Shown piece by piece: positions 3,077 through 27,545 of a stretch of 64,000 nt of DNA. Within the stretch, counting starts at the first letter, position 1; each line of letters begins with the position of its first letter. A program made the translations under genes and the position numbers. The stretch is from Neofusicoccum parvum (Eukaryota; Ascomycota; Dothideomycetes; Botryosphaeriales; Botryosphaeriaceae). The stretch lies in contig CP087210.1 in NCBI GenBank assembly GCA_020912385.1, forward strand, positions 310,001 to 374,000, written 5' to 3'. The notes under the pieces were generated by a model. That model ran no database searches, had not been told where the DNA came from, and saw nothing but the letters and a program-made list of their open reading frames with translations.

Positions 3077-5628
3077 TCAGATCCCAATATGCACAAACGG
3101 CGCCCAAGCTAGTACATCCTCCGCCTTCCTCTTCCTCCTCCCCAGCTTCTTCGCCCTCAGCTCTCTCACCGCCTCATGCAGACACCTCGCCACCCGCCCC
3201 TCCTCCTTCTCCGCACCCGCACTCCCCAGCAACCGGCGGTAAAACGCGTCCGCCACCTCCGTCGCGGCCACATCGTCAGCCTCCCACAGCGTCGCCACCA
3301 CGGCCGGGAACCCCATCAGCTGGAACACGGTGCCGAGGTGGATGCCCTCATCGATCAGGCCCTCGGAGTACTGCTGCGCGGTGCAGCACGCGGACAGGTA
3401 CGCCAGCTCGGCGTGCTCGTGCGTCTCGTCGAAGAGCTGGGCCACCGTCAAGCGGCCGTCGGGCGTGCCGGCGTCCCCGCCCAGGACGAGCGATGTCCGC
3501 GAGGGGTCGGAGAAGTGGGGGTCGCCGTGGCAGGCGAAGTGGACGATGGCGCTGCGGCGCATTTCGTCGACAACGGTGGCGACGGTGGGCGCCTCGAGGA
3601 TGGCGCAGGGGATGCCGGCGTGCGCTGCTGCGTTGCTGATTGCTGCCATCTCCGGGCCGGTGTTGAGGTCTGCCCAGCCTTCCTCCGGCGTGGTGGGGGC
3701 GTGCGCTGCGAAGATCTTGCGCGATGCCACTGTCTTGGATCTCCTGGCCCTTTCTCTTGAGTAGGCGAGCGCCTTCAGGGTGTGGACGTATGAGGAAATG
3801 CAACGGCTGGCGGTGTTTTCGATAGTATCGTCCCATCCTGAACCGGCGGCGTGCAGGGGCATCAAGCCCATCAGCCCGCTGGCGACCCACCAGACTCTCG
3901 GTAAGTCAGTGGTGCTGCTGTCAGGCTGACCTCTGAAACCAAGGTGATCCAGAACGGGCTTTATTGCGACGTCCCATAACCACACCAAGATTTGAGCCAG
4001 TCTGCGGTTCGATTTATTCCTCTCGACTAACGTACACTTAGTGAGCCGGGCTTCCCCGATGATGTCCCGGGAGTTTCCCTTTAGGTCATTCTCAAGGAGC
4101 GACGGTAAAGGTAAGACCTCGATACTCTCCGTGGTAACTATAAATGCATCGGATCGGAATCCAGTGACGTTGAAGCAAACGAGCGGGCCATTCGATGCGA
4201 GCTCCCTGAGTTGTTCCCCTGAAGCTTGGAGCTGGAATCGAGGTAAGCCAGAGATCTTGCGGATTTGATCTTCCAAGCTTGTTAGACGTTCGTTTAGCTC
4301 CTGGCGGTAACGGACCATATCTCCGGATGGCATGGTATCCGGCTTTCTTGAAAGTGTGTCCCTGACTTCTTCATATTCTGACGAGAGTTTTGGGTTGATT
4401 GATTGTAGATCTGAGACATCTACCCGGCTGCCAATGAGTGAGCCTGATATCAGCCCTCGGCCCATCTCAAGGAGATCCAAAGCCTCTTCAGGTTGTTGTC
4501 CAGAATTCAGTGATGCCGCTGCTGCGAAGGTAGAAAGGTTCGATAGACCGGACAGCCTGAACTGCATGTCTTGCCGTGACATGGAACGCGGACTAGCTTG
4601 GGACAACAGTGATATTGTCTTCCTGCTGAATTCATTCGCTTCCGCCCACCGTTCTCTTGACATCAACATGATGGCGGCGACCCGTGCAGCCTTCAACCGC
4701 TGTATTGGTGAAGCACTTTCGGGAGCAGATGCTTCCTTGAAAGTGACTATGGCTTGATCGAACCTAGCCCACCCCTTCTCAACATCTGTGCCGCATTTTG
4801 AGAGCTCCATCTGCCTCCATCCTAGCCAGTAAGCATAATCTGACCATTCGACATGCGTACTTGGCGTGCATTCAAGACAATTCCGAGATAGTGCGATTGC
4901 CTCCTCTAACTTCTCTATATGAGGCTGCGAGTCGCGTGTGAGGAGATATTCCTCGTATATCCGCGTGGCCAGATTGTGGGTGTACATTGCATGTCTCAAT
5001 GTCTCTGAGTTCGGCGTGACCTCTACTGCCTCCCTGGCAAGCCTGACGGACTCGATTCTGTCCTTTTCGACTTTCGTTGTCTCATACCTACTTGCAAGCT
5101 TCGTGCTAAGATTGCTTACGTACATGCCGTAATCGGATTTATCCCAAGCGCATCTATACGCTTCCCTGGCGGAATCGATGGCCTCATTGAGATCCTGGAG
5201 CCGTCTGAACCGGCCATATAGACAAGATAGTGACGTCCCAAGAGTATTCAATCTGACTGCGCGATGGCGACCTTTTGCAGGAGTCCACGATACGGCATCC
5301 CGGGCTTTAGCGACAGCTTCTTCAATGTCTCCTGCTGCTGCAGATGTCTCGTATCGGGCTTGTAGTGCAATGGCGAGGTTGCTTGATATCATTGCCTTGT
5401 CTTCATCAGACAGATGGCTCGATGCAAGGGCATCGCGATATGTCTGTATTGCCTCGTCGAGCACTTTTGTATGTTAGTCTCTCGCCTTTGCGTAGCTGAG
5501 AATAGCACTTACGAGACCGTTCCCCACTGTATTCGAATAACAGTTTCAGGCAGATGGCAAGGTTTTGATGGTAGTTTGGCCTCTCCGGGTGCTCAGATAG
5601 TGCTGCAATCAATAGTTGTTTACCATAC
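3077..5628 (-). pseudogene. TPR-CHAT protease gene, 3' part (disrupted by Copia insertion)
   Basis: This is the downstream part of a gene whose upstream part lies at 16613-17558. Exons are 5628-5513 and 5463-3077, with an intron 5512-5464 (GTAAGT..AAAAG) in phase. The N-terminal two thirds are helical repeats typical of TPR arrays (for example DEAIQTYRDAL, LEEAIALSRNCLE). The last ~280 residues are a CHAT domain, a caspase-family peptidase fold. The His of HFACHG (codon 3529-3527) and the first Cys of SACCTA (3388-3386) form the expected catalytic dyad, and the active-site surroundings (LWEADD) are intact. No stop or frameshift occurs within this part. The first in-frame ATG after the insertion is at 5392. 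Known CHAT proteases (separase relatives, metacaspase kin) cleave protein partners. Here the likely partner is the gasdermin-like protein at 17845. Confidence 0.85.
5624..5628. repeat. Copia target-site duplication, left copy (CATAC)
   Basis: Five bases CATAC lie directly before the left LTR. The same five bases follow the right LTR at 16613-16617. This is the usual 5-bp duplication of LTR-element integrase. Confidence 0.93.
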
Positions 5629-5836
5629 TGTCGAACGGCGCGAGAAAGAATAACACCGCTGTCTTCTTTGATTACTGCTATCGAGTGCTACATAAATATC
5701 TGATCGCAAAGGGGACGCGTAAGTAAAAGAGGCTGTGCTAGGTACTAAGAATTGACGCGTACGGGGTGGAGTGATGGTGGTGTAGTGATCAGAAGAGGAA
5801 TACGAGACACGTGATTGCGGGCCAATGTGGTTGACA
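5629..5836 (-). repeat. Copia 3' LTR
   Basis: A 208-bp direct repeat, identical by eye to 16405-16612. On the plus strand it begins TGTCGAAC and ends GGTTGACA, with short inverted ends TGTC/GACA. It abuts the CATAC duplication on its left and the polypurine tract on its right. Confidence 0.95.
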
Positions 5837-5846
5837 CACCCCCTTC
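5837..5846 (-). other. Copia polypurine tract
   Basis: On the minus strand the sequence GAAGGGGGTG sits directly before the 3' LTR. This is the position of the plus-strand DNA primer in LTR elements. Confidence 0.8.
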
Positions 5847-5933
5847 AGAATGAGCAGTCTAGTGCTTATTCTGATAAAGGAAAGAGTAAAGGAAGTAGGA
5901 AAGATGTCCAATTTAGAAAGTATTTGCTCGAGT

Positions 5934-6633
5934 TTAGTTCTTAATAGGAGCATTGTCTATTGCCGTAATGCTTGAAGGCTGAATGAGCTCCTTGATGTCT
6001 GAAAGGTTCAGTTGTTTGACAAATTGCTTGAATCGTTGAGGCGGAAGTGGCTTTGTTAAGCCATCTGCCACCATCTCGGCCGAGGGAGTCCACTGAAGCC
6101 TGATGCGTCCATTTTGGATCTCCTGGCGTAGCCAGTGCTGGTGGATATCCACATGGCGTAGCTTGGTAGTAAGCTTAGGTGTAGACTCGTCGAGCAGGCG
6201 GATTGTTTGCGTATTATCACATTGAATGAACAAGTGATGGTCTGGATGGAAGCGGATGTGTCGAAAGAGTCTTTCCCACCAGAGAAACTCTTTAGCTGTG
6301 GTTGAAAGGGAGAGAAACTCTGCTTCAGTGCTTGAGGTAGTAACAGTCTTTTGCTTACTTGCTTTCCAGTCAATGGGACCACCAAAGAGCTGAAAAACGT
6401 AGCCCTGGGCAGATCTTCTAGTATCCAGGTCATCTGCAAATGAGGCATCGCTGCAGGCTAGGAAGATGTTCTTTGGTTCCGTCTGTAGAGCATTGAACTC
6501 AATTGCAAGGTACTTGGTTGCTGTAAGATATTGAATAACCCGTGTAGCAAGCTGCTGGTGTCTTTGAGAGGGGTTCTGTAGGTATTCTGCAAGCTTTGAG
6601 GCTGCTTGTGCAATATCTGGACGCGTAACGACT
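5934..6633 (-). pseudogene. Copia pol, RNase H end (severed from gag-pol by the LINE)
   Basis: This is an open frame of about 233 codons with no start codon of its own, beginning exactly at the LINE's left target copy. It carries the Copia connection and RNase H region: VTRPDIAQAASKLAEYLQNP, then SDASFADD, SSTEAEFLSLS (the key Glu), IQCDNTQTI (Asp) and HVDIHQHWLR, ending MVADGLTKPL as in other Copia RNase H domains. The frame continues that of 16184-12181 without change, so the polyprotein was intact (about 1567 residues) until the LINE landed. Confidence 0.9.
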
Positions 6634-6646
6634 GCCGCAAAGTTGA
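6634..6646. repeat. LINE target-site duplication, left copy
   Basis: The 13 bases GCCGCAAAGTTGA occur here and at 12181-12193, flanking the LINE. Five of them (TCAAC on the minus strand) match the LINE tail unit, so the true duplication may be 8-13 bp. Confidence 0.85.
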
Positions 6647-6662
6647 GTTGAGTTGAGTTGAA
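6643..6662 (-). repeat. LINE 3' tail of TCAAC repeats
   Basis: About four tandem units of TTGAG (TCAAC on the element strand) mark the 3' end of the LINE instead of poly(A). Short-repeat tails of this kind occur in I/Tad-type non-LTR elements. Confidence 0.85.
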
Positions 6663-6817
6663 TTCATTTACCCTGACCCATCGCCCTGAGCGATATGCAG
6701 GCTACGACTATTCAAAGAATTTCAATGCTAGTATACATGTTGTGTGTCAATTTGAGAGAAGGAGAAGGTAAAGAGAGGCGGAGAGTGAGGTGTTAGGTGT
6801 GTGGTGTAAAGAGTGTT

Positions 6818-9800
6818 TTACGCTATAGGTTCATCTCTGTTTATGAACCGCTGTGTGTCTTGCGCAAAGCTGAGAACAGCCTGTAGCTGTGACGTTGTTA
6901 TCCTCCACTTATTTTCTTTGCTCTGCGTGGCTACTGTGTTACTTGGTGGCTTTCCACCTAGCAAGGCTGATAGGCTGTTCTTTTGTAAGCCACTTTCTTG
7001 AAGCATCTTCTGACGGCCTTGCTGAAGCAGGTAACAGTCAAGAAGGACATGTGACACTGATTCAACTTCTCCACATTCACACTGCTCATTGTTGATGCGG
7101 CCCATCCGCTTACGGTGTTGGTTAAGCCAGCAGTGGCCTGTCCGAAGCTGGGCAAGGAGACCAGCCAGGCTCCGTGGGAGCTTGTCGTATAGGTGCCGGG
7201 TGTGAGGGCCTGGTGGGGCTGTGTCGATGCCTCGGAGGTGCTGGCCTTTGTCTGAGATTTCCCATTGTGCTGCCCAGGTTGCGTGTGCTGTTTCCTTGGC
7301 TGCCTGGGCCTGAAGTGATGCTAGTGGTCCAAAGCTGTGTTCTCTAAGGCGTGTGGTTGCAGCTTTAGCGAGCCTGTCCGCTTCATCATTCCCTCTGATC
7401 CCACTGTGGCTTGGCACCCATTGGAGAGAGAAGCTGATTTGATAGCTATCCTTGATATGCTTGGCTGTTTCTGTAATTGACCGTACTATGCCTTGACCTG
7501 ATCGTCGCTTGTGTGGGTCTGCTAGTGCTTGTAGGGCTGCCTTTGAGTCGCTGTAGATTGTATATATTACTGGATTTGAGTTGCCTTCTTCGAGGTTCTG
7601 CTCCACTGCTAGCTCCATGCCGGTGTTAATAGCGATAAGCTCAGCGGCCGTGATGCTGTAAAACTTGCTGGAGCCAACCCCTTTCTGGGCTTGTCTATGG
7701 ATTCTCTGCTCCTGGTTGAGGATCACTGCAGCTGCTCCAAGTTGTCCTTTTACTTGAGATGCGTCCGTGAAGATCCTCTTAGCCCCGTCTCGTTTAAGCT
7801 CTTCCTTGAAAACCTCTAGGGTCTGAGATTTGGGTAGCTGCAGTTGGATGTTGTCTAGTAGCAGGGGTTTCCATGGTGGAAGGGGGCATGTATCAATTAC
7901 TTCAGTCTCCTCAGCCTGGCCTGGGCTTTGTAATTTGAGGGTTGCATTCAGTGGGCTCAGGAAGCTGACTGCCAGATTGAGTGTTGATATTGTTTTGTTG
8001 ACAAGCGTCTTGCATGGATGAGAGGTGGGGAGTGTTTTGAGGTTAGTAATGACCCTCTCTGCCCTAGCCTGTAGGCGTAGCTTTGTTGGTAGGAGAAAGT
8101 TCTCGTAGTCTAGTGCTTCAGTTGAAACGGTTTGGAAGGCTGAAATAGCCTTGGTTGTTGCCAGCCGCTGAATCCTGGAGAGTACTGCCACTTGCCATTT
8201 GCATCTCTTTGGGGAGTGCCAGACGGTTGAGGCGTAGTCCAGTTGAGGAATCACGCATGCTTGATAGAGCTGGCGCATCTGCTTTGGTCGGAGGTGCCTC
8301 AGTCTACCTATGGCCAGGCAGGTCTTGGTTGCTCGTGTGGCAGCTCTCTGAACGTGGGCTCTCCACCGGAGTTGCTGGTCAAAGATAACTCCTAACAGCT
8401 TCACTTCTTGCCTAGGCTCAATTACATGGTTGCCCATGACTATTGCTCCTGAGCAGTTCTGGTCTGGACTTCTTGTAAAGTGTATGAGCTCTGTCTTGTC
8501 TGCTTCAAAGCTTGATCCAGTTTGCTCTGCCCAGCGCTGCATTCTTGGTATGTCCTCCCTTTGCAAAGCTGCAAGGTTTTTGCTTGCAGATAGGCTTGTT
8601 CGCCACCGGCAGTAATCATCAATGTAGGCAGATGATCCTCCAGTGAAGTCAACTGGCTGGTCAACTAGGTCGGCGTTGTAGAAGGCAAAGAGAATTGGTG
8701 AGAGAGGTGAGCCTTGAGGGAGACCAGGGTGGTTGAGAGCTGCAGCTGGCTTGGTGTAGTTATCAAACGATATTGAAGCTGTTCTGTTCTCCATAAAGCT
8801 CTTGATCCAGCACCTTGCTTCAGTTGGAATCCCTCTCTTAGCCAGGCAGTGGTCTAGTACCTCCTTGCCAACTGCATTAAAGGCACCTTTCAGGTCGAAT
8901 GCCATAAGCGTGACCACTTTGTGTTCTTTCCAAGCCTTCCATATAGCATCAACTAGGATAAGGAGAGCTTGCTCTGTTGATCTACCTGGTCTTGCCCCAA
9001 ACTGGGTGGCTGGCAAGAGATTGTGCTTCTCAGCATAGTAGGATAGCCTCTTTGCCATTACTGCTTCTAGCAACTTTCCGAGTGTGTTGAGTAGTGAGAT
9101 TGGGCGGTATGCTTTGGGAATTGTGTAGTCAGGCTTGCCAGCTTTCCGGAGGACAATGATTGCTGCTGTACGCCAGGCTTTAGGATGGTGGCCAAGGTTG
9201 ATAGATGCAGAGAAGATGTGGTGGATATATGTAGTAATGTAGGGCCAAAGCTTCTGCCAGACAAGCATAGGAAGGCCATCATCTCCAGGGGCAGAGTTGG
9301 GTTTGGTAGAGCTTAGACTCTGGTGGATTTCGGCTTCTGTGATCGGTTCCCACCCTATAGGAGTTGCCATAGTAGATTGAGCTGGTGGTTGTGGGCTGGT
9401 TGGCTTTGGAAAGAAGGTGTCTAGTAGAAGTTGTGCCTTCTCTGCATTTTCTGTGGCTTTGTTGTTGCCTGTAGAGAGTGGGGGAATGTTGCTGTAGTTA
9501 TCGCTTGGGCTAGCGTATTTAGCTGCCTTCCATAGCTGGTTGCCTTTCCCTGCATTATCTAGAAAGTCCTTCCAGTGGCTGCTCTTTGCATGTGCTATTG
9601 CTTTTACCCATTCTCTACGGGCCATCTTCATTGCGCTGTATTGGTCCACTGTGTCTGGGTTGTCTCTTCCAAGGCTTGCGCTAAAGGTTTGCCAGAGCCG
9701 GCGGTGCTTGTTATATTTAGATTGGTGATCTTTGAGTTCTGGGTTAAACCACTGCTTCGAGTATGGACATGGCTTGGCAGTTGGCGTAAACTCATTTGTT

Positions 9801-10690
9801 ATAGCTGTGGTTGTACTAATAAGCTGCTCGACTGCTTTGTCGAGCTGTCCACATGTGGCAATCTGCCTTGCCTGCCCAAGGGCGCGCTGAATAGCCTGTC
9901 CTGTCTTTGTCCAGTCTGTTCGCTCATAGAGCTTGCGTGGTGGTCGTGTATTGGCCTGTTCGACCTCCATGTTCCATTCAGAGAAGATGGCTCTGTGGTC
10001 GGACCCGTAGTTTTGGTCTAGAAGCTCACACTTAACTAGCTGGTTTGGAATGTTGCTAAGAGTAAGGTCTAGTGTCGTTCTACTGTCGGCTTTGTTACTG
10101 GCGTAGCAGGTTGGTGTGCCACGATAGAGGTGGCTCTGAAGGTGATGTTCTTCCATAAACGAGATTAAGGATGCTGCGCTTCCTACCAGATATGGTTTAA
10201 TATTGTCTCCGCCCCATAGCGGGTCTTGTCTGTTGAAGTCTCCTCCGAGGATCAGGCCTAGGGTGTTGCATGTTGTCTGCTTTGCTATGGACTGGCGGAT
10301 TGCTTGGAGAGCTGCAAGCATTTCGTTCTCTGCCGACTGTTGGGTTCCTCCCATTGGCGGTATGTAGACTGAGAAGATGAGGATTGGCTGGTTTGGTGTC
10401 TGAATTTGAACAGCTGTAAGGTCTCGGCTATTGCATGGAACTTGCTGCTGTGCAGAGGAGGAGATTCGTTTATTAACGTAGATGGCGGATCGTTTTTTCT
10501 GAGTTCCAGTGTAGGTTGGGGTGTATAGGTGCCATGAGCGGTGTTGTGGTAGGTTTTTAAAGAAAGAGACTGGTGGTTCTTGAATAAGAAGGATGTCGAG
10601 TTTTTCCGTGTCTGGGTCGTTGATTAAGGCTTCCATGCATTCGTTTGTTTTCCAGATGTTCAATTGGACAATTCGTAGGGGCTCTAGCAT
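6818..10690 (-). CDS. LINE ORF2: endonuclease, reverse transcriptase, RNase H
   Basis: A 1290-residue protein that nicks the target, copies the LINE RNA and degrades RNA in the hybrid. The N-terminal APE-type endonuclease (about residues 1-240) shows LLIQEPP, GDFNRQDPLW and SDHRAIFSEW. The reverse transcriptase (about 440-740) shows SAPGDDGLP, RPISLLNTLGKLLE, MAFDLKGAFNAV, GLPQGSPLSP and the catalytic YIDD. The RNase H (about 990-1130) shows IFTDASQ, a TAAELIAI Glu, YSDSKAAL and RGNDEADRLAK. A cysteine/histidine cluster (CECG..H..C) near the C-terminus resembles the zinc-binding end of Tad/I elements. The start ATG overlaps the ORF1 stop in the string ATGCTAG, suggesting stop-restart translation. 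No internal stops are present. Confidence 0.95.
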   Translation of the reverse strand: MLEPLRIVQLNIWKTNECMEALINDPDTEKLDILLIQEPPVSFFKNLPQHRSWHLYTPTYTGTQKKRSAIYVNKRISSSAQQQVPCNSRDLTAVQIQTPNQPILIFSVYIPPMGGTQQSAENEMLAALQAIRQSIAKQTTCNTLGLILGGDFNRQDPLWGGDNIKPYLVGSAASLISFMEEHHLQSHLYRGTPTCYASNKADSRTTLDLTLSNIPNQLVKCELLDQNYGSDHRAIFSEWNMEVEQANTRPPRKLYERTDWTKTGQAIQRALGQARQIATCGQLDKAVEQLISTTTAITNEFTPTAKPCPYSKQWFNPELKDHQSKYNKHRRLWQTFSASLGRDNPDTVDQYSAMKMARREWVKAIAHAKSSHWKDFLDNAGKGNQLWKAAKYASPSDNYSNIPPLSTGNNKATENAEKAQLLLDTFFPKPTSPQPPAQSTMATPIGWEPITEAEIHQSLSSTKPNSAPGDDGLPMLVWQKLWPYITTYIHHIFSASINLGHHPKAWRTAAIIVLRKAGKPDYTIPKAYRPISLLNTLGKLLEAVMAKRLSYYAEKHNLLPATQFGARPGRSTEQALLILVDAIWKAWKEHKVVTLMAFDLKGAFNAVGKEVLDHCLAKRGIPTEARCWIKSFMENRTASISFDNYTKPAAALNHPGLPQGSPLSPILFAFYNADLVDQPVDFTGGSSAYIDDYCRWRTSLSASKNLAALQREDIPRMQRWAEQTGSSFEADKTELIHFTRSPDQNCSGAIVMGNHVIEPRQEVKLLGVIFDQQLRWRAHVQRAATRATKTCLAIGRLRHLRPKQMRQLYQACVIPQLDYASTVWHSPKRCKWQVAVLSRIQRLATTKAISAFQTVSTEALDYENFLLPTKLRLQARAERVITNLKTLPTSHPCKTLVNKTISTLNLAVSFLSPLNATLKLQSPGQAEETEVIDTCPLPPWKPLLLDNIQLQLPKSQTLEVFKEELKRDGAKRIFTDASQVKGQLGAAAVILNQEQRIHRQAQKGVGSSKFYSITAAELIAINTGMELAVEQNLEEGNSNPVIYTIYSDSKAALQALADPHKRRSGQGIVRSITETAKHIKDSYQISFSLQWVPSHSGIRGNDEADRLAKAATTRLREHSFGPLASLQAQAAKETAHATWAAQWEISDKGQHLRGIDTAPPGPHTRHLYDKLPRSLAGLLAQLRTGHCWLNQHRKRMGRINNEQCECGEVESVSHVLLDCYLLQQGRQKMLQESGLQKNSLSALLGGKPPSNTVATQSKENKWRITTSQLQAVLSFAQDTQRFINRDEPIA

Positions 10691-11952
10691 TGGAAGCTAA
10701 TATGGGGGAGGATCTGGGCTCTGCACTGGCTGTCTCCTGTTGGGTGGCTGCCGCGGCAGTCTGCACACTGGGGAGAGCTGCCTGGTGGGCAGTTCCTCGT
10801 GTTGTGTCCTCCGTTGCAGTTTCCGCATCTTTCCTTTTCCCTACAGTTACTAGCGAGGTGTCCAAATCCCTGGCATCTATAACACCTCTTTCTTTCCATG
10901 CGGTAGAATTCAACACGGTTGACAATTTCCTGTCCAAAGAGAAGCCCATTCTGAACTGCATTTTGGGCTGCTTCTTCAGTGTTGAACCATATCCCCAGGG
11001 ACGCGTGTTGGCCGAAGGGGTTATCTTTCTTCTTCATCCAGGCTATATCCTCAATCTGCGTGTCTGTCTCTAAGAGCTTGTTCTCAAGAGTGATCTTCTG
11101 GATTGCGTTTTCCTTTTCTTCTATCTGGACTTCGCCTGTTGGCGTGCGGTGGGCTACCACTCCAAATCTTGGGCGATTGATTTTCGTGTCTTTTCCTAGC
11201 ACCGTGGTCCATTCTTGATTCTGAATTGCAAGCTGTTTGGCTTCTTTATTCTTAAAGCGGATGAGGTATCCTCGCTTTGTTGCCTTTGCTCCTAGGACTT
11301 CCGCTTGTTTGGTTGGCTCTTGGCTTTTAAGTGCTCGGGATACGAGGTTCACTGCGGTTGGGGTAGGCAGGTTCCGGGTGAAGCCGTTTGCTGGTGTCTG
11401 GTCAGGGCCTGGTGGTGGAACGTCGATGAGTATCGTCGTAGGGTTGTTTCCGGATTGCCTGTTGTAGGTTGGGGGCGTTTGGAGTGCTCCGCGGGCTGCA
11501 ACTGTTGCCCAGCTTTGGCTTTGCGGGGGACTGGTGGCTGCTGGTTGGAGCTTGCTCTCGAGTTTCTGGACTTGCTCAGCCAGGTTGCTGATAAGCTTGG
11601 TTAGTTCCTGGTGCTCTTTCTTGGCCTCCTCTCTTTCCTTTTGGAGGAGTTGGATTGTCTTTTGCTGCTGGGATACTAGTAGGGCTAGTGTTTCGGTGTT
11701 CGGGTTTGTCTCTACTTGGAGGGTTGCTTGCGTGGATTGTATGGTCTGGCTACTAGGGGGGTCGTCTTCTGTGGAGCTCGTGTGGGTTTCGTCTTCTGTG
11801 TCTTGATTGTTTCTATAACTGGCGGTACGTCGTTTCTCTCTGATTTTTCCGCTAGGAGCGGCTGACTTGGATCTAGTAATGATTTGGCTGTTGGGTGGAG
11901 CAGTAGTTGACTTGCGCCGTCCGCGTTGCAGGGGGCCTGGATTGGGAAACAT
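10684..11952 (-). CDS. LINE ORF1: gag-like RNA-binding protein
   Basis: A 422-residue protein expected to coat LINE RNA. After a basic Ser/Thr-rich N-terminus, residues about 85-135 form a coiled coil (LLQKEREEAKKEHQELTKLI). A central RRM-like region follows, ending in three cysteine clusters near the C-terminus: CYRCQGFGHLASNC (classic CCHC), CGNCNGGHNTRNC and CADCRGSHPTGDSQC. This is the usual ORF1 plan of Tad/I-type LINEs. The last seven bases overlap the ORF2 start. Confidence 0.9.
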   Translation of the reverse strand: MFPNPGPLQRGRRKSTTAPPNSQIITRSKSAAPSGKIREKRRTASYRNNQDTEDETHTSSTEDDPPSSQTIQSTQATLQVETNPNTETLALLVSQQQKTIQLLQKEREEAKKEHQELTKLISNLAEQVQKLESKLQPAATSPPQSQSWATVAARGALQTPPTYNRQSGNNPTTILIDVPPPGPDQTPANGFTRNLPTPTAVNLVSRALKSQEPTKQAEVLGAKATKRGYLIRFKNKEAKQLAIQNQEWTTVLGKDTKINRPRFGVVAHRTPTGEVQIEEKENAIQKITLENKLLETDTQIEDIAWMKKKDNPFGQHASLGIWFNTEEAAQNAVQNGLLFGQEIVNRVEFYRMERKRCYRCQGFGHLASNCREKERCGNCNGGHNTRNCPPGSSPQCADCRGSHPTGDSQCRAQILPHISFQC

Positions 11953-12180
11953 GGTTTCATGTAGAGTGCCGAGCCTGAGCTTTGACCAGTAGAGGGAGAA
12001 TTTTGCGTCTGGTGAGTGTGGATGGCGCTGTACGATAGCCTAGCCTAGCGGCCGCGCTTTGGCGGTGCAGGCTTTGCTACTAAGTTGAAGTGGTGTGGCC
12101 GCTGTGCGCTTTCTTTTGGTAGTGGTTTGGTCACGGGCCGAGCCTTGGTTAGTAAGATCCCTTTCTCGGGGGAGGTCCTG

Positions 12181-12193
12181 GCCGCAAAGTTGA
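12181..12193. repeat. LINE target-site duplication, right copy
   Basis: GCCGCAAAGTTGA, the partner of 6634-6646. It marks the 5' boundary of the LINE within Copia pol. Confidence 0.85.
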
Positions 12194-15100
12194 TTGATCC
12201 AATCTTCTGTTGATAGGCGTGAATGTCTTGTGCTGAGGCTTGTTCCTGGGAGGCCTGGAGGTCTTCCACTGGAAGAGGCGTTGGTGGTGGTTTTCCTTGA
12301 ATATTGAACTTTGTTGCAAGCTTCTCAATGTAGGAATCCTGGCAAAGCCAAAGTTTTCTTTGAGGTCTGTTTCTGATGATTCTGATTGCGAGGAACCATT
12401 CAAGTTCACCAAGGATACGTAGCTGATAAGTGTCCTGAAGTCTACGTTGGAGATTGTCCACCTTGTGCTCATTCTGCTTTGCGTAGATGACTGCAATGTC
12501 ATCCACATAGAAGAATAAGAGCATGAAATCGTTTGCGAAGAGACAGTTAACTCCTGGTACTTGTGAGAGCCCAAGCTCTTGTAGCGTTGCTGAGAGATGA
12601 TTGCTCCAAAGGGCAGGGGATTGCTTAAGTCCGTATAGAGCTCTTAGAAGCTGAAGAATGAGGCCTAATTCAAGCCCCTGATATTCTTCGAGAAGGTAAA
12701 TTCCTTCTGGGAGCTCACAGTACGTGTCCTCGTCAATTGGGCTATTCACGAAGGCGTTTACTGCGTCCAATTGTCTTGATTCAAAGTCAAAAGCGGCCAT
12801 GATCGCAGTAAGGCTTCGGAAAGTCCGGGCAGCTAATGTAGCCGCGTAGGTGTCTTGTTCCGTGATTTGCAAGTCTCCTCGAACACAGAGTCTTGCCTTG
12901 TGCTTGATAAGGTATCCTTCAGTGTCGAATTTGTACTTGAATACCCATGTGAGTGGAATAACTCGTTTATTGGCTTGTATAGCAGCATGGCGTTTAACTA
13001 GCTTCCAGGTTTTAAAGCTTGCAAGTCCGCGGATTTCAGTCTTTAGTGCCTGAATGAATCCTAAGGATTCCGGGTGTTTGAGCATCTGTTTGAAGGATTT
13101 TGGCTCAGGTGGAAGTTGATCTCTGTGAATCCTTGCTTTCTCATTGGGTGGGGGCCTTGAAAGGCTGAGTGCTGCTGCAAATGCATGGTGGAATGATGCG
13201 TTGGTTCCTCCTTGCGTTTCTGTGAGTACTGAAGCGTACGCTTGTCTTCGTGTAGAGCGTCTTGGTCCTCCTTGGTGCTGTTGGTCCTGAACGATGTTTT
13301 CCTGGCTGAATTCTGCAGATATTAGGTTCCCTCTTGGTGCTCTATTACCTCGCGCTGCGCCAGGCGCAGGCGGGGTGTCGTATTGTACAGGAAGAAGGCG
13401 TGGAAGACGTAACGTGTTATCTTCCACTTCTTCGTCAGGTGACTGGATTTCATGCGGTTGGCCATCTGAATTGCTTTCTTGCTCTGAAGGACCTGGAGTG
13501 GGAATTTGTTGATTTTCTTTAGTTGACTGGTCTGTTTGCTGCTCTAAGGGCTGATCTGGAGCTTGATCTGAGTGCTGTTGTGTTGGTTGCTGTAGCACGT
13601 GATCAGAGCTATTATCTGATTCACCCCCTTGGTCTTGGACAGTCCTCTGACCTGGACCATCTTCCTGTTGTGTGGCATGATAGGTAGGAATTTGTACCAC
13701 AATCTCATCTTCCATTTGGTCTTCTACCTGTGGTAGTTCAGGCAGTACTGGAATTTCCAACGTTTGAATGAACTCTGAGGGTTCTTCTTGGAGTAGTTGT
13801 GTGAGATCTGGGTCCTCTGGATTGTAGAATTCGTCTTCATTGAAGAGAACGTCTCTAGTACGAATCACTCTTTCTTGGCTAGGTATCCAGATGCGGAAGA
13901 TATTCGTTGAGTCGTATCCAACGAGGTGACCAAGATGTGCGCGCTCTGCGAGCTTCTGCGTGCGTGGAAGTCCTTTCCTTAGTGCATAGGCTCTGCAGCC
14001 AAACACACGAAGGTGTGAAATGTTTGGTTTCTTGTCTGTGACCTTCTCAAATGGTGTTTTCCAGTTGTGCTTTCTCATAGGAGTCCTGTTGTGGATATGG
14101 CCGGCTGTCTTGATGATTTCTGGCCAAATGGACTCGGGAATAAGTGCACCAATGCGTAGGGCTCTTGCTTTGGTAAGTAGTACACCTCCTGAGCGTTCAG
14201 CATGTCCATTTTGCTCAGGTGTATCTGGTGAGGAGGTTTCCAAGGTGATTCCCTTGCTTTCGAGAAAGTCTTTGGCTTCCCATCCAATTGTACGTTCTCC
14301 ATCTGTTCTAAAGAACGCCACTGTTCTCTCATAGCGTGTTTCAATCATATTAATGACGAATCGAATGAGGTATAGGATGTCTGACTTATTTGGGTGGGTA
14401 AACACGAAAGTGAAGTCCGTTTTAGTGCATGCAAAGTGGGAAATCCACTTGTCTTGGTTGTAGGCTCTTTGCATCTCAATAAGATCAAATGAGATTCGGA
14501 AGAAAGGTTTCTGAGAGTCCTCTTCCTTGTCTGGGCTTCTAGAGATGATTTTGTGTGCTTTGGAAAGCGCACAGGTCTGACATTGGGCAGTCTTGGGAAC
14601 ACTGAGGTCTGAGGTAACTGATGCTCCTTCCACATTGCTTTGTAGGTGCTCAATCACTTCTAAGTTGGCATGAGCAAGAGTTCTGTGCCATTTCTCTGCA
14701 GTGGAGGCTCGAATGGAGGCTGGATTTGCAGTATATCCGGTCTTTACTGAGATGGAGTTGTTTTCCAGGAGGAATAGGCCTTGCTGTCGCTGAACCTTGC
14801 ATACATGCCTTCCATGCTGGATGAGTTGCATGTTTTCTGTGTCCCAAAAGCAGTTCTTGCTTATAGCAATGTCCACTGACACAAGGTTGGTCATGAACTG
14901 TGGAACAAAGGCCACGTTTGTGAGAGTGATGCTGGAAGTGCCTGTGTTTGTCTGTACATAGACTTCTACTGTTCCCCATGCTTCAATCTTGCAGGTTTGA
15001 GTGCCTGACTCAAGTATGGTATTAGGAACCGCGTCGTGAGTTTTACTGAAGCGCTGAAGCATTGTATAATTGCACACGTGGATGTCTGATCCTGAGTCTA

Positions 15101-16184
15101 AGATCCAAGAATCCTGTAGGGTATTGCTCTTGGCTGAAAATGAGCAGTGATGCGTGGATAGCGTGATATGCTGTTGTTGCTGACTTGACTCTTGAGCGTT
15201 CTGGCTTGCTCTCGCGGCTCTGAACTCCTGGATTCTCTTGTTCTTTGCAAGTGAATAGTTCACTCTGTCTTTGAATGTTGAGTCCTGCATTTTCTTCTGA
15301 ATTCGGGCTTGAATTGATGGATCAGGTCTCCAGTCCTTCTGGCGTAAGTCAGGGTTCAAGTAAGAACATTGGGGTATCCAGTGGATCTGTCCACATTCAC
15401 AGCGTGGAGGGTTTGGAAGCTGCCTGCCTTGGAAGGTGGCTGAAAAGGCCGAATGTGAGGCACCGGTCCTTAATGGCTTATTAGCTTGGTTCTCTCGGTG
15501 TGTCTTGCGGCAGTGCTCAATCAAGGTAAACAGGTCCGTAATTTCCGTGAGGGGATTCATCTGTTGGGCTTGACAGGCTGCAACAAAGGCAGGTTCTATT
15601 GGCTGGAGGGCAAAGAGGAAGTCTCTAATGGGCTTCTGTCCTTCTACTTCCCAAAGCTTATGCTTGGTTGCTTCTGTGTAAAAGGTTTCCCATTGCTTGA
15701 GCCATTGCTCGATGCCTTGAAGTTTAGGTGGCTTGCAGAGCTGTCGGTATTGAAGTTCAAGCTCCATGAGTCTCGCTTGGTCTGTAGGTGCAAGGCGCTT
15801 CTTCAGTGCTCTGAGAATGTTCCAGGGATGAGGTTCCGTTGAAATGATGAAGGAAAGGTTGTCAATTGAGATTGAGCCTTGAATGAAGACTGTGAGGTCT
15901 GAAAGGGCCTTTTCTTGACGTTCGAATCGTGTAAAAAGGTCTCGGTATCGGACTGACTGAGACCTGTAGGCCTCATAGGCCTCTGGGGTAATTGCCTGGC
16001 CTTCTCTTGGCTCAGCGAGTTCCGGGAATTGCGGTTCTAATAGCTGTGTGGGCTTGGTCTCCTTTGAAGGATCCACAAGGTCCCAAATGCGTGTTGCTTT
16101 GGCGCGGCTTTGCACCAAGTAAAGCCATTTGTCCCAATCTGATGCTTTGGACAGAATGACGGTCTTCTTTGATGGTTCTGCCAT
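12181..16184 (-). pseudogene. Copia gag-pol, N-terminal 4.0 kb (interrupted by the LINE)
   Basis: The frame starts at ATG 16184, 220 bases after the 5' LTR. Gag covers about residues 1-300 and has only a reduced cysteine cluster (CECGQIHWIPQC) instead of a full CCHC knuckle. The aspartic protease shows ILDSGSDIHV (Asp-363). The integrase shows WHRTLAHANLEV and CQTCALSKAH (HHCC zinc site), then FRTDGERT and SPDTPEQNGHAERSGG (catalytic core). An acidic, Gln-rich linker follows. The reverse transcriptase shows LDAVNAFVNSPIDEDTYCE and FFYVDDIAV (YVDD). The frame runs into the LINE leader and stops at 12045, so RNase H is lost from this product. No other defect was seen. Confidence 0.93.
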
Positions 16185-16380
16185 GGCTGAGGCTTGAACC
16201 GAGTAGGAGTAGGCTGCTTGGAAAGCTGTAGCAGGTCTACTAAGGGCTGAAGTGAACTACCGCGTGCTGTTGCGTGTAGTTACGTGGAAAACTAGGTACT
16301 AAACTGCTTGCTCATCGCAGTATATAGTATTGAAAGACTTGTTGTAGAAGGTTTGCTTGAAAGAATGCTCATTGGCGCAT

Positions 16381-16404
16381 GGTATGCGCTTCCGGGCTCA
16401 TAAC
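16381..16404 (-). other. Copia primer-binding site, half-tRNA(Met) type
   Basis: On the element strand, GTTATGAGCCCGG follows the 5' LTR directly. Its complement, CCGGGCTCATAAC, reads as the 5' side of an anticodon stem, the loop CTCATAA with CAU anticodon, and the next base. Copia-type elements are known to prime from a 5' half of initiator tRNA-Met cut in the anticodon loop, and this fits that pattern. Confidence 0.75.
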
Positions 16405-16612
16405 TGTCGAACGGCGCGAGAAAGAATAACACCGCTGTCTTCTTTGATTACTGCTATCGAGTGCTACATAAATATCTGATCGCAAAGGGGACGCGTAAGT
16501 AAAAGAGGCTGTGCTAGGTACTAAGAATTGACGCGTACGGGGTGGAGTGATGGTGGTGTAGTGATCAGAAGAGGAATACGAGACACGTGATTGCGGGCCA
16601 ATGTGGTTGACA
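16405..16612 (-). repeat. Copia 5' LTR
   Basis: A 208-bp LTR, identical by eye to 5629-5836. It is the 5' LTR because the element runs on the minus strand. The 5-bp duplication CATAC follows at 16613-16617. Confidence 0.95.
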
Positions 16613-17558
16613 CATACTCAATTGCAAGATGCAAAAATCTAACGCCTTGCCCTCGTTCATACGCCTCTCTGTGCCTGTTCGTCATATTGGCAAGTATCCC
16701 CACCCGATCTTCGCTTTCAGGAGGACACATCCGCATTGCTGTATGTAGTATTTCAATCGATTCGTCCAAGCCAGATAATGGCACAAGTCCGGCCTCGTAG
16801 TTCTCTGCCAAGACGGTGCTCAAGTGACTGAACATGTTACATCCATGAGGGAAATCCTGGGGCATGGCTTTACAAGCCGCTCTCGCGAGTGGTAGGGTTT
16901 CCCGCAGATCTGCGACATTTCCAGTCTTCTCGAAGCGTTGAAAGAGCCCTCTTCCAAGGTCATCCTCGTCCCGCCACCGATCTGCGTCGTTCCTTCTTGT
17001 TGATTCTTCCAGAACGTCACGTCTCGCCTGTATCAGGCGATCCAGTATTTCTGGCTCCTCGAAGCCTTTGTAGATACGGTTCAGCTGTTCCTGGACTGTG
17101 CGCAAGTACACGAGGTGATAGCTCGGGTCGAGAGCAGATAGGTCGATGGCTTGGTACGCGAGCCGAAGCGCTTCCTCTAGGTCGCCTCGGTTGTTGGAGT
17201 ACTTGAATCGATTTCCAAGAGCTCCAGCTAGTAGACATAGAACGAAAGGCCTCTCAAAGTGGTCGTCGGGTGCCTCTTTGCTCCAAGTATTGAACAGACA
17301 GATCGATGTCTCAAGATCCACCGGGACTCCATCGTGAACACCACCGCGCAGAGAAACATGGTGCGCGAGCATCCAAATCATGTTCAAAGACTCCTCGGAA
17401 GACCTGGGAGCATGCTTTATCACCGTTTCAGCATTGATGATGGCGGATTCCAGGGCATCCGGGCTTTTGTCGTTCCTGTACGCTCGAAAAAGCTCCTTGG
17501 CCTTTGCATGATGGGGTGTGATGTCGACCTGTGCTTCGGAAAGTGCGAAGTCTCCCAT
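16613..17558 (-). pseudogene. TPR-CHAT protease gene, 5' part (disrupted by Copia insertion)
   Basis: This is the first 313 codons of the TPR-CHAT gene, starting at ATG 17558 (MGDFALSEAQ). An in-frame ATG at 17687 would add 43 residues, but that stretch is rich in Arg/Pro/Cys and looks like leader. The sequence is all-helical with repeat-like spacing (DLEEALRLAYQAIDLSA, VADLRETLPLARAACKA), consistent with TPRs. The codon interrupted at the Copia junction is completed exactly on the other side at 5628 when one CATAC copy is ignored, so the insertion is the only lesion. As it stands, the frame runs about 32 codons into the LTR and stops at 16521, giving a truncated protein without the CHAT domain. 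It is divergent from the gasdermin-like gene, with 286 bases between start codons. Confidence 0.85.
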
Positions 17559-17844
17559 GGTAGTCTGTGAAGCGTAGCAGTTACGTTTCGTCTCAGCGCG
17601 CCTCTCACACAGCGGTGTTGCAAGCGGGCGGTCCTGCCACCCCACTCCAGCCTGGCGGGGTTTAGGCAGCTCAGCCTCTGGGGCCAAAACTCAGCAGGCA
17701 GGAGCGAGTGGGTGCACAGACACGTCACCCGGGTGGCAAGAAAAAGAAACTCACCAGGAAACCTGTTATCTTGACAGGTTATAACACAGCGCGACCTTTT
17801 CTCGGCGGCCTTGCAGCGAGCAGACCACAGAGCAGAATGCCACC
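17559..17844. promoter_or_regulatory. Shared divergent promoter of CHAT protease and gasdermin-like genes
   Basis: Only 286 bases separate the two start codons, so both promoters must lie here. No clear TATA box was seen. An ATG at 17837, eight bases before the gasdermin-like start and in another frame, could act as an overlapping upstream start and lower translation. Confidence 0.55.
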
Positions 17845-18690
17845 ATGGCTCCTCCGTTTCTCGTTCTTCCGCAACTTCTCCCCGCGCACTCCGTGCCCGT
17901 CGGCAGCTTGGTATGCTCGCTTCTGGAGCCCCATGTCGATATCCTCAAGGAAGAGCGCGGCATCGAAGAGGAGTCCGGCTTCCAAGCCACGGCCATCGAC
18001 CTTTCCGGCTTCATCCAGAAATCCCGAAGCACCCGGTTCTCCGCTGCTCTCACTCAACTGCTGAACGTCCACACGGAACCCGGCTCTGCTGGTGGAACGC
18101 ACCTCTCAAGCAAGGCTGTCAAACGATACGAACTGGCTTCCCATAGAGAGAGATTCGCGGAGCTCTGCACCGGAGAAAAGACCAAAACGTGGCTTGAAGA
18201 GAGTGTGAAGGCGGGGGAGAAGTGCTACATGGTCGTCGGCGTCATGACCGTTCTGGACGCGAAGATATCGCAGATTCATAGCAAAAGAGTTGCTACGGGA
18301 GTCGACTTAACGGCACCGGTCAGCACGGCTTTGACGGGCGGCATTGATGTCTTTGGTATCATGGATCCAGGCGTTGGCATCGAGAAGAGCAGGCGCACCG
18401 ACGAAGGTGTGTCGTTTGAGGCGCCGGGTGAGATGATCTGGGCGATCGCATACCGGGCGATCAAATTCCAGTCGTTCAAGAGGAAGACTGTCAACACAGC
18501 GTTTCTTGATCATGCTATCCACTGGAAACCACTCATGGGCCAACGAGCTAAGGATTCAGGGGACGTAGAGGAGCTGGAGGTGGATCTGGAAGACATTGAT
18601 ATGAGTGAGGAGGAAGAACTGGTCGACTTCGTTCGTGATGAAGATGATGATACCTTTGTACTACCAAGATCGTCGGGTGGTGTTGATTGA
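17845..18690 (+). CDS. Gasdermin-like protein (candidate pore-forming cell-death effector)
   Basis: A single-exon gene of 281 residues. Length and order of elements fit fungal gasdermins (HET-Q1, RCD-1, about 260-280 residues). After PVGSL (18-22) comes a strand-like AIDLSGFI (50-57), comparable to the segment after the first strands of animal gasdermins. Then come KCYMVVGVMTV (126-136) and APGEMIWAIAYRAIKF (193-208), resembling the conserved strands VYVVTEV.. and IPxGSxLAFRV.. of the pore-forming domain. Residues 240-281 form an acidic tail (EVDLEDIDMSEEEEL), a plausible removable inhibitory end. There is no signal peptide or obvious helix in the membrane. In known fungal pairs a neighbouring protease cuts such a tail, freeing the core to make plasma-membrane pores. 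Its head-to-head neighbour here is a CHAT protease gene, which strongly supports the idea. The start at 17845 lies in CACCATGG. It could instead be an unrelated fungal protein family. Confidence 0.6.
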   Translation: MAPPFLVLPQLLPAHSVPVGSLVCSLLEPHVDILKEERGIEEESGFQATAIDLSGFIQKSRSTRFSAALTQLLNVHTEPGSAGGTHLSSKAVKRYELASHRERFAELCTGEKTKTWLEESVKAGEKCYMVVGVMTVLDAKISQIHSKRVATGVDLTAPVSTALTGGIDVFGIMDPGVGIEKSRRTDEGVSFEAPGEMIWAIAYRAIKFQSFKRKTVNTAFLDHAIHWKPLMGQRAKDSGDVEELEVDLEDIDMSEEEELVDFVRDEDDDTFVLPRSSGGVD

Positions 18691-20877: not shown

Positions 20878-23800
20878 TTATGAATCGGCGGGCGAAGCCT
20901 CGATGTTGACGGACTGCTTCCTCGGAGTACCGAAGCCATTACGGATGAAGCCCGAGACGTCTTGGTTGTGCGAAATCAACTCATCGTTGAGCTGACCCAG
21001 CTGACGAACTTGTTCACGGATACCAGCCATCTTCACATTCGATACCAGTTAGCCCCAGACCAGCAGGGTGGAAGCCGCGGCATGCCGGGCAGAAGACGTA
21101 TTTGGGTGTAGAAGGGGGTGAGGGTGAAGGTGAGTGTTGGAACAACATAGGAGATCTGACCATTGCAGGCGTTGTGAGCCCGGTCTTTTCATAACGCACC
21201 TGGCCGCTAGCCGACTTATCGTTCAAGTTATCCCTCTCCTCCTCGCCAGAGTTCCGGTACTGCGGAGGAGCGCCACCATTCTGACGGTAGGAGGCGAGTT
21301 CGGTCTCGAGTTCGATAAGACGCTGCTTGTATGTCTCGCACTCACGGATGAGCTCAGCGACACGAGGGCTCTCGCGGGTGCCGGCAATTTCGACATGGAG
21401 CTTGTCAATCTCGGTGTTGAGACGATCGATTTCGGCCTCGGCGCGCTTGATCTCGGAGAACTGGTCGTTGATCTCGGCCTTGGCGACGTCGAGTAGGTCA
21501 GTGAGCTTCTGGACGGTTACTTGCTCAGTCTTCTTCATTTCGGCCTTGATTTGCTCCTCACGAGATGCAGCCTCCATATGAAGCTTCGCCCTCTCCTCCT
21601 TGAGTGCCTCCTCGAGCGCTTGCTGGTACAGCTTGTCAGTCTCGTCATGCTGTTTCTTGACACGAGCGATCTCTGCCTCGAGCGACTCCTTCATGGTCGA
21701 GTGCTCGTGCTTGAAATTCTGCTCGATGGCAGCCTTCTCTTGCTCGTAGATCTGTTCCAGGGTCTGCTCCATCGAGGAACGCTCCTTGGCGTGCTCCGAC
21801 CACAGCTTCTCGAGCAGCTGGTCGTGCTCAGTGCGGCTAAAATGATGCGTCAGTTATCAGCTTCACGAGCGTTCCTAGTTACGTTACCTTTCCTCGGCCT
21901 CCTTCTTGAGCTGCTCGAGCTCTGCCAGCTTCTGCTTCAAGAGAGCCTCCTTTCCGGTCTTCTCATGCTCGAGCCTCTCGTTCGCCTCGGTCAACTGTTG
22001 GTTGAGCGTCTTGAGCCTGACGATCTCGTTCTCCAACTCGACACGAACACGGGCAAGCTCAGACTCAAGCTCGCGCTTCATCTTCTCGAGACCAGAGGCG
22101 TGGTGGCCATCGCGTTCCTCGTGAGCTTCATCAAGAGCCCTCAAGGTCTGCATGAGACCATCGACTTGGCGAGACTTCTCCTCAAGCTCCATGGTCTTCT
22201 CGTCGAGGTCGCGCTTCATGGCCCTGTAGTCATCGAGCTGAGGCATGGCCTCGTCAATGGACTGGCGACGGGCAGCAAGTTCCTGGTTCATGCGGGACAT
22301 CTCGGCATCCTTCTCCGCGATCTTGTCGGCCATTTTGTATTCGGCGTCCGCAATCTTGTCTTGGAGGGACTTGATCACCTTAGAATGCTCCTTGTCAACG
22401 CCCTTCAGCCTATCGTGGGCATCATTCAGCTGGCGCTCAGCCTCCTCAAGCGCACTCTGAAGTTCCTCGATCTCCTCGTGGAGTCTATCGAGCTCCTCGT
22501 GCAGCTGAGGAATCTTGTCCGCGTCCTCCTCGTTGGCTTGACGCGCAGCGAAGAGCTGCTTCTCAAGGACATCCTTCTCCTCAGTGAGGCCATTAATGCG
22601 ACCCTCGAGCTTCCTGGTGCGGTCTTCAAACTCCTGACGGACCTCGAAGACGTTGGGGCCCTTGACAGCCTCCTCGAGCTCAAGATGCAAGTTGTCAATG
22701 GTTTGACGAAGACTTTCGATTTCGTGGTCACGGCCCTGCAGAGTCTGGGCGCTCTCCTCAAGCTGCACGTTGTAGACACGAACAATCTCCTGGACCTGCT
22801 CCTCGTACTCAGCCTGGACAGCCTTGGTGGCGCGCTGGTGGAAGTCGATGGTAGCGAGAGCATCCTGGGTCTCAGTCTTCTTGGCATCGAGCTCCTCGGC
22901 GACCGTCTCGATTCTGGTGCAAAGCTCGGTGATCTGGTGAGTCTTGGACTCCAGCTCACTAGTCAGGCCATCCACCTCGTCCGAGCGCTGCTGCTCAAGC
23001 TCCTTGATCCGGTTCTGAAGGTTCGACATGATCTCGTCGTGAGCGATCTCGCCTTGGTGCTCGCCACTCATCTTCTCGCGCAGATCCTTGACGGTTTCCC
23101 TGGCGTTCTGAAGAGCACCGTCCCTCGCCTCAAGGTCATCCTCGAGGTGGGCCTTGTCGGTGATGAGCTGAACAATCTCATCAGTCAGGCTGTGGAGGCT
23201 CTGCTTCCTGGTCTTGATGCGAGCAGAATCAGCGATCTTCTGGAGACCAAGAGTGTAGTCATCCTGAAGCTGCTCGACAACAGCAGCATGTTCCTGGGTG
23301 GACCTCTCGAGGCGCTGGAGGAGGAAGTTGTAATCGTCCTGGTGCTTCTCAGTGGCGATGGCGTTGCTCTGAGCCGCATCCTGGGCGCGGCGGACCATCT
23401 CGGCCTTCTCCTGCTCAAGCTCCGAGCATTCTTGCCTAAGCCTCTCAACCTCAGCAACAAGATCAGAGCTCTTGTCGGAGGTATCCTGCTGTAGGCCGAT
23501 GACCTTGTCTTGCAGAGCCGTGATTGTCGACTCCATCGAAGCCTTGTCCATCTCAAGCTCCTGGATGCGCTGGTTGAGCTTCTCAGAATCATCATCGGCG
23601 CCACGAGAACCGTCGGCCTTCTCCTGCTGCAGAACAGTAACCTTGTCTTGCAGAGCCGCAATGATTGAGTCTGCAGAGCCCTTCTCCTGCTCGAAGTCGG
23701 CGATTTGCTTCTTCAGCTTTTCGACCTCAACGCTGGCAACGGTCTCAGTCTCAGAGCGCTCTTGCTCCAGACCCCGGATCTTGTCCTGGAGGGACTCGAT

Positions 23801-26800: not shown

Positions 26801-27545
26801 CTCCTCGTCCTCGGGGTCAGCTGCCTTGGGAGCGGCACTGTTAAGGAGATTGTTAGCAAGAGCTGGCAGCATAAGGTGAGAACCCGTGAGTGACTAACCT
26901 CTCAAGATCTTCGTCGACAGGCTTAGGCGCAGCAGCAGGCTTCTTAGTGTCGACTGATGCCCGCGACATTGATGTTCTTGTGCTGGGGCGGGCAGTGGTC
27001 GATGTGGAGGCCCTGCTGCCTGCGGCCGCACGCGGAGTTGCATTGGAGACAGCAGACGGTCTGGAAGAGACGGCGGGCCGCTTCGGAGCTGAAGAAGCCG
27101 CGGACGATGTGGGAGCGGTGCTTGTGCGTCGGACAGAAGCAGACGTGCCCGCAGTTGCAGATGAGCGAGAGGCCGAAGAAGCGGTGCCGGTTGTCGACAA
27201 CCGCTTCGATGCCACGCTCGCCGGTCTCTTGTCATCGCTCGCAGTGTCGGTCGTTGAACGCCTGACGCTGGATGTGGTTGTGGAGCTTGCACCAGGACGT
27301 GTCGGGGGCTTGTTGATGGTGCTGCTGGTGGAAGTGCGTGTCGCAGAGGATGAGGTCGGCTTCGTGGCCGTCGAGGTTCGCGTCGCGGCAGGCGTGCGTG
27401 AGGTCGAGGACGAGACGGTCGAGGTGGGCCGACGCGGGGGGGCAGAAGCACCAGTCTTCGCAGCCGACGCAGCGGTGCCGGCCACCGAGGACGTCTTCCT
27501 GTGAGTCCTGGACTCAGCCGAGTCGGGCTTCTCAGTGTCGGCCAT
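20878..27545 (-). CDS. Giant coiled-coil protein, 2128 residues
   Basis: Four exons: 27545-26899, 26837-21888, 21836-21200 and 21030-20878. The introns are 26898-26838 (GTTAGT..ACAG), 21887-21837 (GTAACG..TTAG) and 21199-21031 (GTGCGT, CTAAC branch, GAAG). All phases match. Residues 1-210 are basic and low in complexity (Ser, Thr, Ala, Arg, Pro), the type that often binds microtubules or other polymers. About 1750 residues of almost unbroken coiled coil follow, including seven 36-residue repeats and three longer repeats. The C-terminal exon is compact: MAGIREQVRQLGQL..NDEL..FIRNGFG. It resembles 'M protein repeat' or tropomyosin-like proteins annotated in fungi. A structural role (spindle pole, septum or cell cortex) is possible but not shown. 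The last exon is preferred over reading through to a stop at 21014 because of its good splice sites. Confidence 0.8.
24620..25045 (-). repeat. Three degenerate ~50-residue coiled-coil repeats
   Basis: Within the coiled-coil gene, three units begin EERGALKTQSELDELLEQ, EERSTLKSQHEIEEIVEQ and EERGALKSQTELDELVEQ. Each continues into an Ala/Glu/Lys stretch ending KLQEDL. The first unit is longer because the piece QEDLQKH is doubled. Confidence 0.85.
25257..26013 (-). repeat. Seven tandem 36-residue (108-bp) coiled-coil repeats
   Basis: The units have the pattern EKIxQLESELxxAK followed by xxDEVxRLKxELEAERK. Seven consecutive copies are spaced exactly 36 codons apart and show modest divergence. 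Thirty-six is one more than five heptads, so each copy shifts the coiled-coil phase by one residue. Confidence 0.88.

Follow-up and report, generated by a model that had tools for sequence, protein, structure and literature searches.

A Copia-interrupted CHAT protease gene and its divergent neighbour, a candidate gasdermin-like effector gene, in Neofusicoccum parvum

A head-to-head gene pair was examined in a 64,000-nucleotide stretch of the Neofusicoccum parvum genome (assembly GCA_020912385.1, contig CP087210.1, positions 310,001 to 374,000), referred to here as the window. The minus-strand gene, with its ATG at 17558 and a span of 3077-17558, encodes a protein with a CHAT protease domain, and the plus-strand gene encodes a protein of 281 residues. 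The two start codons are separated by 286 bp, in agreement with the initial annotation of the locus, which had proposed a CHAT protease paired with a gasdermin-like death effector. That annotation treated 3077-17558 as one intact gene and made no mention of a retrotransposon of about 11 kb inside these coordinates. The CHAT gene is in fact interrupted at 5624-16617 (target duplications included) by a Copia long terminal repeat (LTR) retrotransposon, which, together with a second element nested within it, splits exon 1.

An interrupted protease gene and its intact neighbour

The gene structure was read against P0015, an uninterrupted full-length CHAT relative of 1140 aa from Macrophomina, and against a second relative, P0011. 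The features are listed below with coordinates, strand and basis.

3077..5463, minus strand: CHAT gene exon 2, comprising the repeat region and the CHAT domain (matches to P0015 and P0011)
3083..3988, minus strand: CHAT protease domain (PF12770; His codon 3527-3529, Cys codon 3386-3388)
5464..5512, minus strand: predicted 49-bp intron of the CHAT gene (GTAAGT, CTAAC, AG; frame change between P0015 matches)
5513..5623, minus strand: CHAT gene exon 1, 3' part, beyond the insertion (match to P0015 residues 324-350)
5624..5628, no strand: target-site duplication CATAC, copy 1 (sequence)
5629..16612, minus strand: 10,984-bp Copia LTR retrotransposon splitting exon 1 of the CHAT gene (LTRs, target duplication, element domains)
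6647..12180, ends approximate, minus strand: LINE-type element nested in the Copia element (Pfam; 13-bp repeat)
16613..16617, no strand: target-site duplication CATAC, copy 2 (sequence)
16618..17558, minus strand: CHAT gene exon 1, 5' part, N-terminal helical/TPR-like region (match to P0015)
17559..17844, no strand: divergent intergenic region of 286 bp, possibly a shared promoter (read from sequence)
17845..18690, plus strand: single-exon gene for 281 aa, candidate pore-forming (gasdermin-like) effector (relatives; conserved core at about residues 112-232)
18559..18687, plus strand: acidic C-terminal tail, residues 239-281, candidate inhibitory segment (composition and alignment)

Upstream of the insertion, 313 residues match residues 1-312 of P0015 (63%, E = 3e-133). 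The downstream flank matches residues 324-350 and then, past the predicted intron, approximately 351-1140 at 62%; exon 2 additionally matches residues 229-1027 of P0011 at 71%. Because the two flanks match successive parts of P0015, the Copia element is placed in the coding sequence of exon 1. The frame at 3077-5473 was also considered as a complete gene and rejected, since P0015 extends a further 350 residues upstream. Gene models that omit exon 1 probably account for three predicted CHAT proteins (P0010, P0012 and P0014) whose sequences begin where exon 2 does.

The protease domain named in the initial annotation is recovered well above threshold (PF12770, E = 7.7e-34, 117.9 bits versus a Pfam cut-off of 24). 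In the 798-codon frame, His649 and Cys696, assigned as the catalytic pair by the CHAT motif, are invariant in 15 aligned rows (the window and 14 relatives), and the reported His-Cys dyad is intact. The TPR label is weak in the window itself, where all matches fall below the Pfam cut-off (TPR_10, E = 0.003 and 0.16; TPR-S, E = 0.16), and draws better support from relatives, P0011 and P0015 carrying precomputed TPR domains (PF20308 and PF13374).

The Copia element lies on the same strand as the CHAT gene, and its LTRs (5629-5836 and 16405-16612) are identical in 208 of 208 bases. An open frame at 12045-16256 contains RVT_2 (Copia-type reverse transcriptase), SH3_retrovirus and Pol_BBD over their Pfam cut-offs, along with a weak integrase match. 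The nested LINE-type element carries endonuclease, reverse transcriptase and RNase H domains as well as an ORF1 whose CCHC match is below the Pfam cut-off; it is bracketed by a 13-bp repeat (6634-6646 and 12181-12193), interpreted as the target-site duplication of this element. Elsewhere in the genome, the LTR has at least 16 further matches of 95-99% that are full-length or nearly so (40 of 78 candidates scored), which together with the identical LTRs here argues for recent activity of this Copia family. LTR identity likewise points to a recent insertion, and the remaining CHAT frames, which contain no stop codon, fit a young event. The 11 kb was also considered as an intron, a reading rejected in view of the LTRs, target duplication and element genes. 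As read from the sequence, the insertion appears to have disrupted the CHAT gene recently, with probable loss of protease function. This interruption is the part of the locus most worth keeping; the surprise is otherwise modest.

The 281-residue protein is encoded without an intron by the open frame at 17845-18690, as initially annotated, and this is the sole copy found at E ≤ 1 in the assembly (44 Mb, 18 contigs). Open length alone is weak evidence for the gene, as shuffling the region 300 times gave a frame of up to 285 codons; that it is no chance frame follows from the 11 relatives retrieved by profile search (nine first, then two more). Identity to nine of these spans 55-97% in the first alignment, the closest being P0001 (97%), filed as Neofusicoccum parvum. 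The family is narrow: scoring 7,995 candidates up to E = 10 yielded no more than these 11 relatives. Five carry an organism name, from the genera Neofusicoccum, Lasiodiplodia, Diplodia and Macrophomina, all of them Botryosphaeriaceae. Among the nearer relatives, length and core are conserved without obvious rapid turnover.

Two further elements of the initial description are present in this protein. Both quoted strand motifs (one being KCYMVVGVMTV) were located, at residues 126 and 193, and presumably resemble the central hairpin of animal gasdermins. The acidic C-terminal tail comprises 43 residues (239-281; 4.86 kDa) with 19 Asp/Glu and two Lys/Arg, in contrast to a body with an isoelectric point of 7.8. 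It is kept in 11 of 12 aligned rows, with 14-21 acidic residues from the residue-239 point onward, the exception being P0107.

Linkage among relatives and other CHAT loci

Linkage was scored when a relative of the 281-residue protein lay on a contig of exactly the same size as that of a CHAT relative, the sizes compared being those of the longest contig of each protein cluster, against 97 listed CHAT relatives. Four of the 11 relatives share an exact contig size with a CHAT relative:

P0002 and P0011 (Lasiodiplodia): 1,090,748 bp
P0005 and P0010: 9,568 bp
P0006 and P0014: 65,220 bp
P0007 and P0015 (Macrophomina): 203,696 bp

Proximity of the genes follows for P0005/P0010 because that contig is only 9,568 bp long; the other three pairs share a contig only. 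The small gene thus stands within 10 kb of a protease gene both here (286 bp) and in a relative. Judged by matching contig sizes, linkage between the two genes appears conserved in at least four of 11 relatives, contrary to the possibility, named at the outset as refuting the pairing, that homologues are never next to proteases.

CHAT genes were also observed in other settings. Among actinobacterial TPR-CHAT relatives (27-36% identity; 80 of 205 loci kept, L017-L096), 49 of the 80 loci have in common a neighbour with a median length of 335 aa that looks hydrophobic by eye (top 25 neighbour clusters, with shadow frames kept in). This suggests that some bacteria have a two-gene system in which a different protein is the partner. 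In the Neofusicoccum genome, another CHAT gene (G000:C1:195614-196489) has a 359-aa frame (L006:2482-3561) approximately 3 kb from its CHAT-domain match. By eye this frame resembles one at the start of another locus (L129), near an S8 protease gene, and possibly represents another effector family. Elsewhere in the window, a 1669-codon open frame with a coiled-coil look (21887-26893) has a Pfam match only below the cut-off, and ordinary genes encode a copper amine oxidase (60032-61573) and BUD22 (62539-63645).

A candidate cell-death module and its alternatives

We judge best, and place just on the probable side, the explanation that the locus forms a cell-death module of two genes in Botryosphaeriaceae-type fungi, with a gasdermin-like effector and, in this strain, a disrupted protease. 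Its central component, the identification of the 281-residue protein as a gasdermin from its size, acidic tail and partner gene, is on balance probable. A cytosolic sensor-protease, composed of helical TPR-like repeats and a CHAT cysteine protease, would start from the shared 286-bp region together with the effector. Once the repeats sensed a trigger, the protease would cleave the roughly 5-kDa acidic tail from the 281-residue protein. The body left behind, about 235 residues, might then form a gasdermin-like pore in the plasma membrane, with death of the compartment as the result, conceivably in allorecognition or defence. Counted in favor of the module is the tail size (~4.9 kDa), which matches the ~5 kDa that HET-Q1 loses from its C-terminus on cleavage (PMC12881547).

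With the protease gene interrupted, the module as initially proposed is not intact in this strain. The effector would most likely be an orphan left without its activator after the Copia disruption; an inhibited orphan would be harmless, which fits the intact frame of the 281-residue gene.

Several results weigh against this explanation. The Pfam Gasdermin model was unmatched in the 10 of 12 family sequences scanned, which gave a single match, to OB_cyt-4 (E = 0.069), and found nothing in the whole genome; the family has no PADLOC match, NCBIfam returns only a lasso-peptide model (E = 0.056), and the family profile matches no PDB sequence. The OB_cyt-4 and lasso-peptide matches are chance-level, and the profile negatives were obtained with no fungal gasdermin as a positive control, so that absence is not excluding. 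AlphaFold models were poor, with a mean pLDDT (predicted local distance difference test) of 32.4 from 10 sequences and 45.5 from 12. The better model exceeds 50 only at approximately residues 89-134 and 199-230, where helices and portions of three strands can be seen, though they make up no fold; only part of the strand at 128-138 lies above 50. With a poor model as the query, Foldseek returned 29 rows, all at E > 3 and none naming a gasdermin, and VIA-align gave no meaningful fold match. The gasdermin identity proposed initially is thus neither shown nor excluded.

Linkage also has its counterexamples. Seven of the 11 relatives (P0001, P0003, P0004, P0008, P0009, P0107 and P0108) have no CHAT relative on an equal-sized contig, two of them on contigs of just 5,418 and 937 bp. 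The 97 listed CHAT relatives include no full-length protein at 97-99% to go with P0001, the nearest relative, but they do include a 501-aa piece at 99% (P0013, on a 1,781-bp contig). In the P0001 genome, either the insertion is shared, or the CHAT gene was lost, or it was left unannotated.

A bridge to gasdermins through the subtilisin-type clusters of the same genome, which holds 25 S8 (subtilisin-type) matches, was pursued and dropped, having gained no reference gasdermin. A profile of the 281-residue family found nothing significant among the open frames of 33 own-genome loci (25 small S8 loci, two larger S8 stretches and six around other CHAT genes; best E = 0.11), nor did it exceed E = 0.72 in 361 frames of six more S8 stretches, larger surroundings being covered for eight of the 25 S8 matches. 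Against 9,710 open frames of 105 loci (80 bacterial CHAT, 25 own-genome S8), the best E was 0.55.

Foremost among the alternatives, and possible though unlikely, is a 281-residue protein that is the CHAT substrate and effector but not a gasdermin, belonging instead to a lineage-specific family of unrelated membrane-active or signalling proteins. The lack of any relevant curated-family or PDB-sequence match would be expected of such a protein, as would a family reaching only 11 relatives, the named ones confined to four genera, and the different neighbours of the actinobacterial CHAT genes and of the second CHAT gene of this genome show that other partners are possible. Its size, acidic tail and divergent CHAT pairing nonetheless fit fungal gasdermin clusters as described in the literature. 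A more specific combination, in which the family is a CHAT-activated non-gasdermin death effector and the Copia insertion marks a death locus losing its sensor-protease, appears doubtful.

It is quite improbable that the pairing is real while neither gene serves cell death, with the CHAT protein processing a housekeeping partner. Such a role would suit the conserved length and core of the effector among its nearer relatives, but fungal CHAT proteases have been tied to incompatibility and gasdermin clusters (PMC11138114, PMC12881547), and the CHAT gene is probably dispensable, as this strain carries an interrupted copy. Equally improbable is persisting protease activity, through a Copia element spliced out or read through or through its LTR driving a shortened CHAT protein: the shared strand and the open 798-codon downstream frame, with its intact dyad and a first Met at codon 28, would permit it, but an 11-kb intron with two sets of element genes would be highly unusual for a fungus, constitutive protease activity next to the cognate effector should be lethal, and an open downstream frame is expected anyway of a young insertion.

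Should the small protein prove to be a gasdermin, the locus would add a CHAT-type case from a fungal family with plant pathogens among its members, and would exemplify a death effector that lost its activator gene. It would then allow one to ask directly whether protease loss leaves a neutral orphan behind or gives rise to a new incompatibility allele, an idea proposed for het-Q1/het-Q2 and rcd-1 as the "pseudogenization" model (PMC10197012). Should intact and broken versions of the protease gene segregate within the species, the insertion could provide raw material for such an allele, and the presence or absence of the Copia element among isolates could test how incompatibility alleles arise.

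Comparison with known systems

Approximately 80% of fungal gasdermin genes adjoin protease genes, about 63% of the S8 type, and CHAT genes lie within 10 kb of 19% of them (PMC10197012); cysteine proteases, CHAT included, account for about 17% of clustered proteases (PMC12881547). The idea that CHAT here takes the place of a subtilisin is therefore already published, rather than new. A literature search combining Botryosphaeriaceae and gasdermin found no paper, and the locus itself seems undescribed in the collection searched.

RCD-1 of Neurospora crassa is of similarly small size (257 and 244 aa; PMC12881547) to the 281-aa protein, but its activation comes from its other allele and involves no protease, unlike the CHAT activation proposed here. 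Its structures (8JYY and 8JYZ; PMC12881547) would be expected to be included among the PDB sequences that the 281-aa family left unmatched. The Aspergillus fumigatus incompatibility locus hetB, with idiomorphic alleles, one of them CHAT, also encodes a large CHAT protein (PMC11138114). For Podospora anserina, a TPR-CHAT protease has been shown to activate the gasdermin of its own two-gene cluster (Clave et al. 2022, as covered in PMC12881547 and PMC10197012). That pair likewise sets an effector-sized gene beside a TPR-type CHAT gene, whereas here gasdermin homology is undetected and a retrotransposon splits the protease gene. HET-Q1/HET-Q2 of the same species differ in that HET-Q2 is a subtilisin-like serine protease and in that het-Q1 and het-Q2 occupy a single locus as idiomorphs (PMC12881547), in contrast to the neighbouring genes described here; common to both would be the removal of a C-terminal tail of approximately 5 kDa, as postulated for the 281-residue protein.

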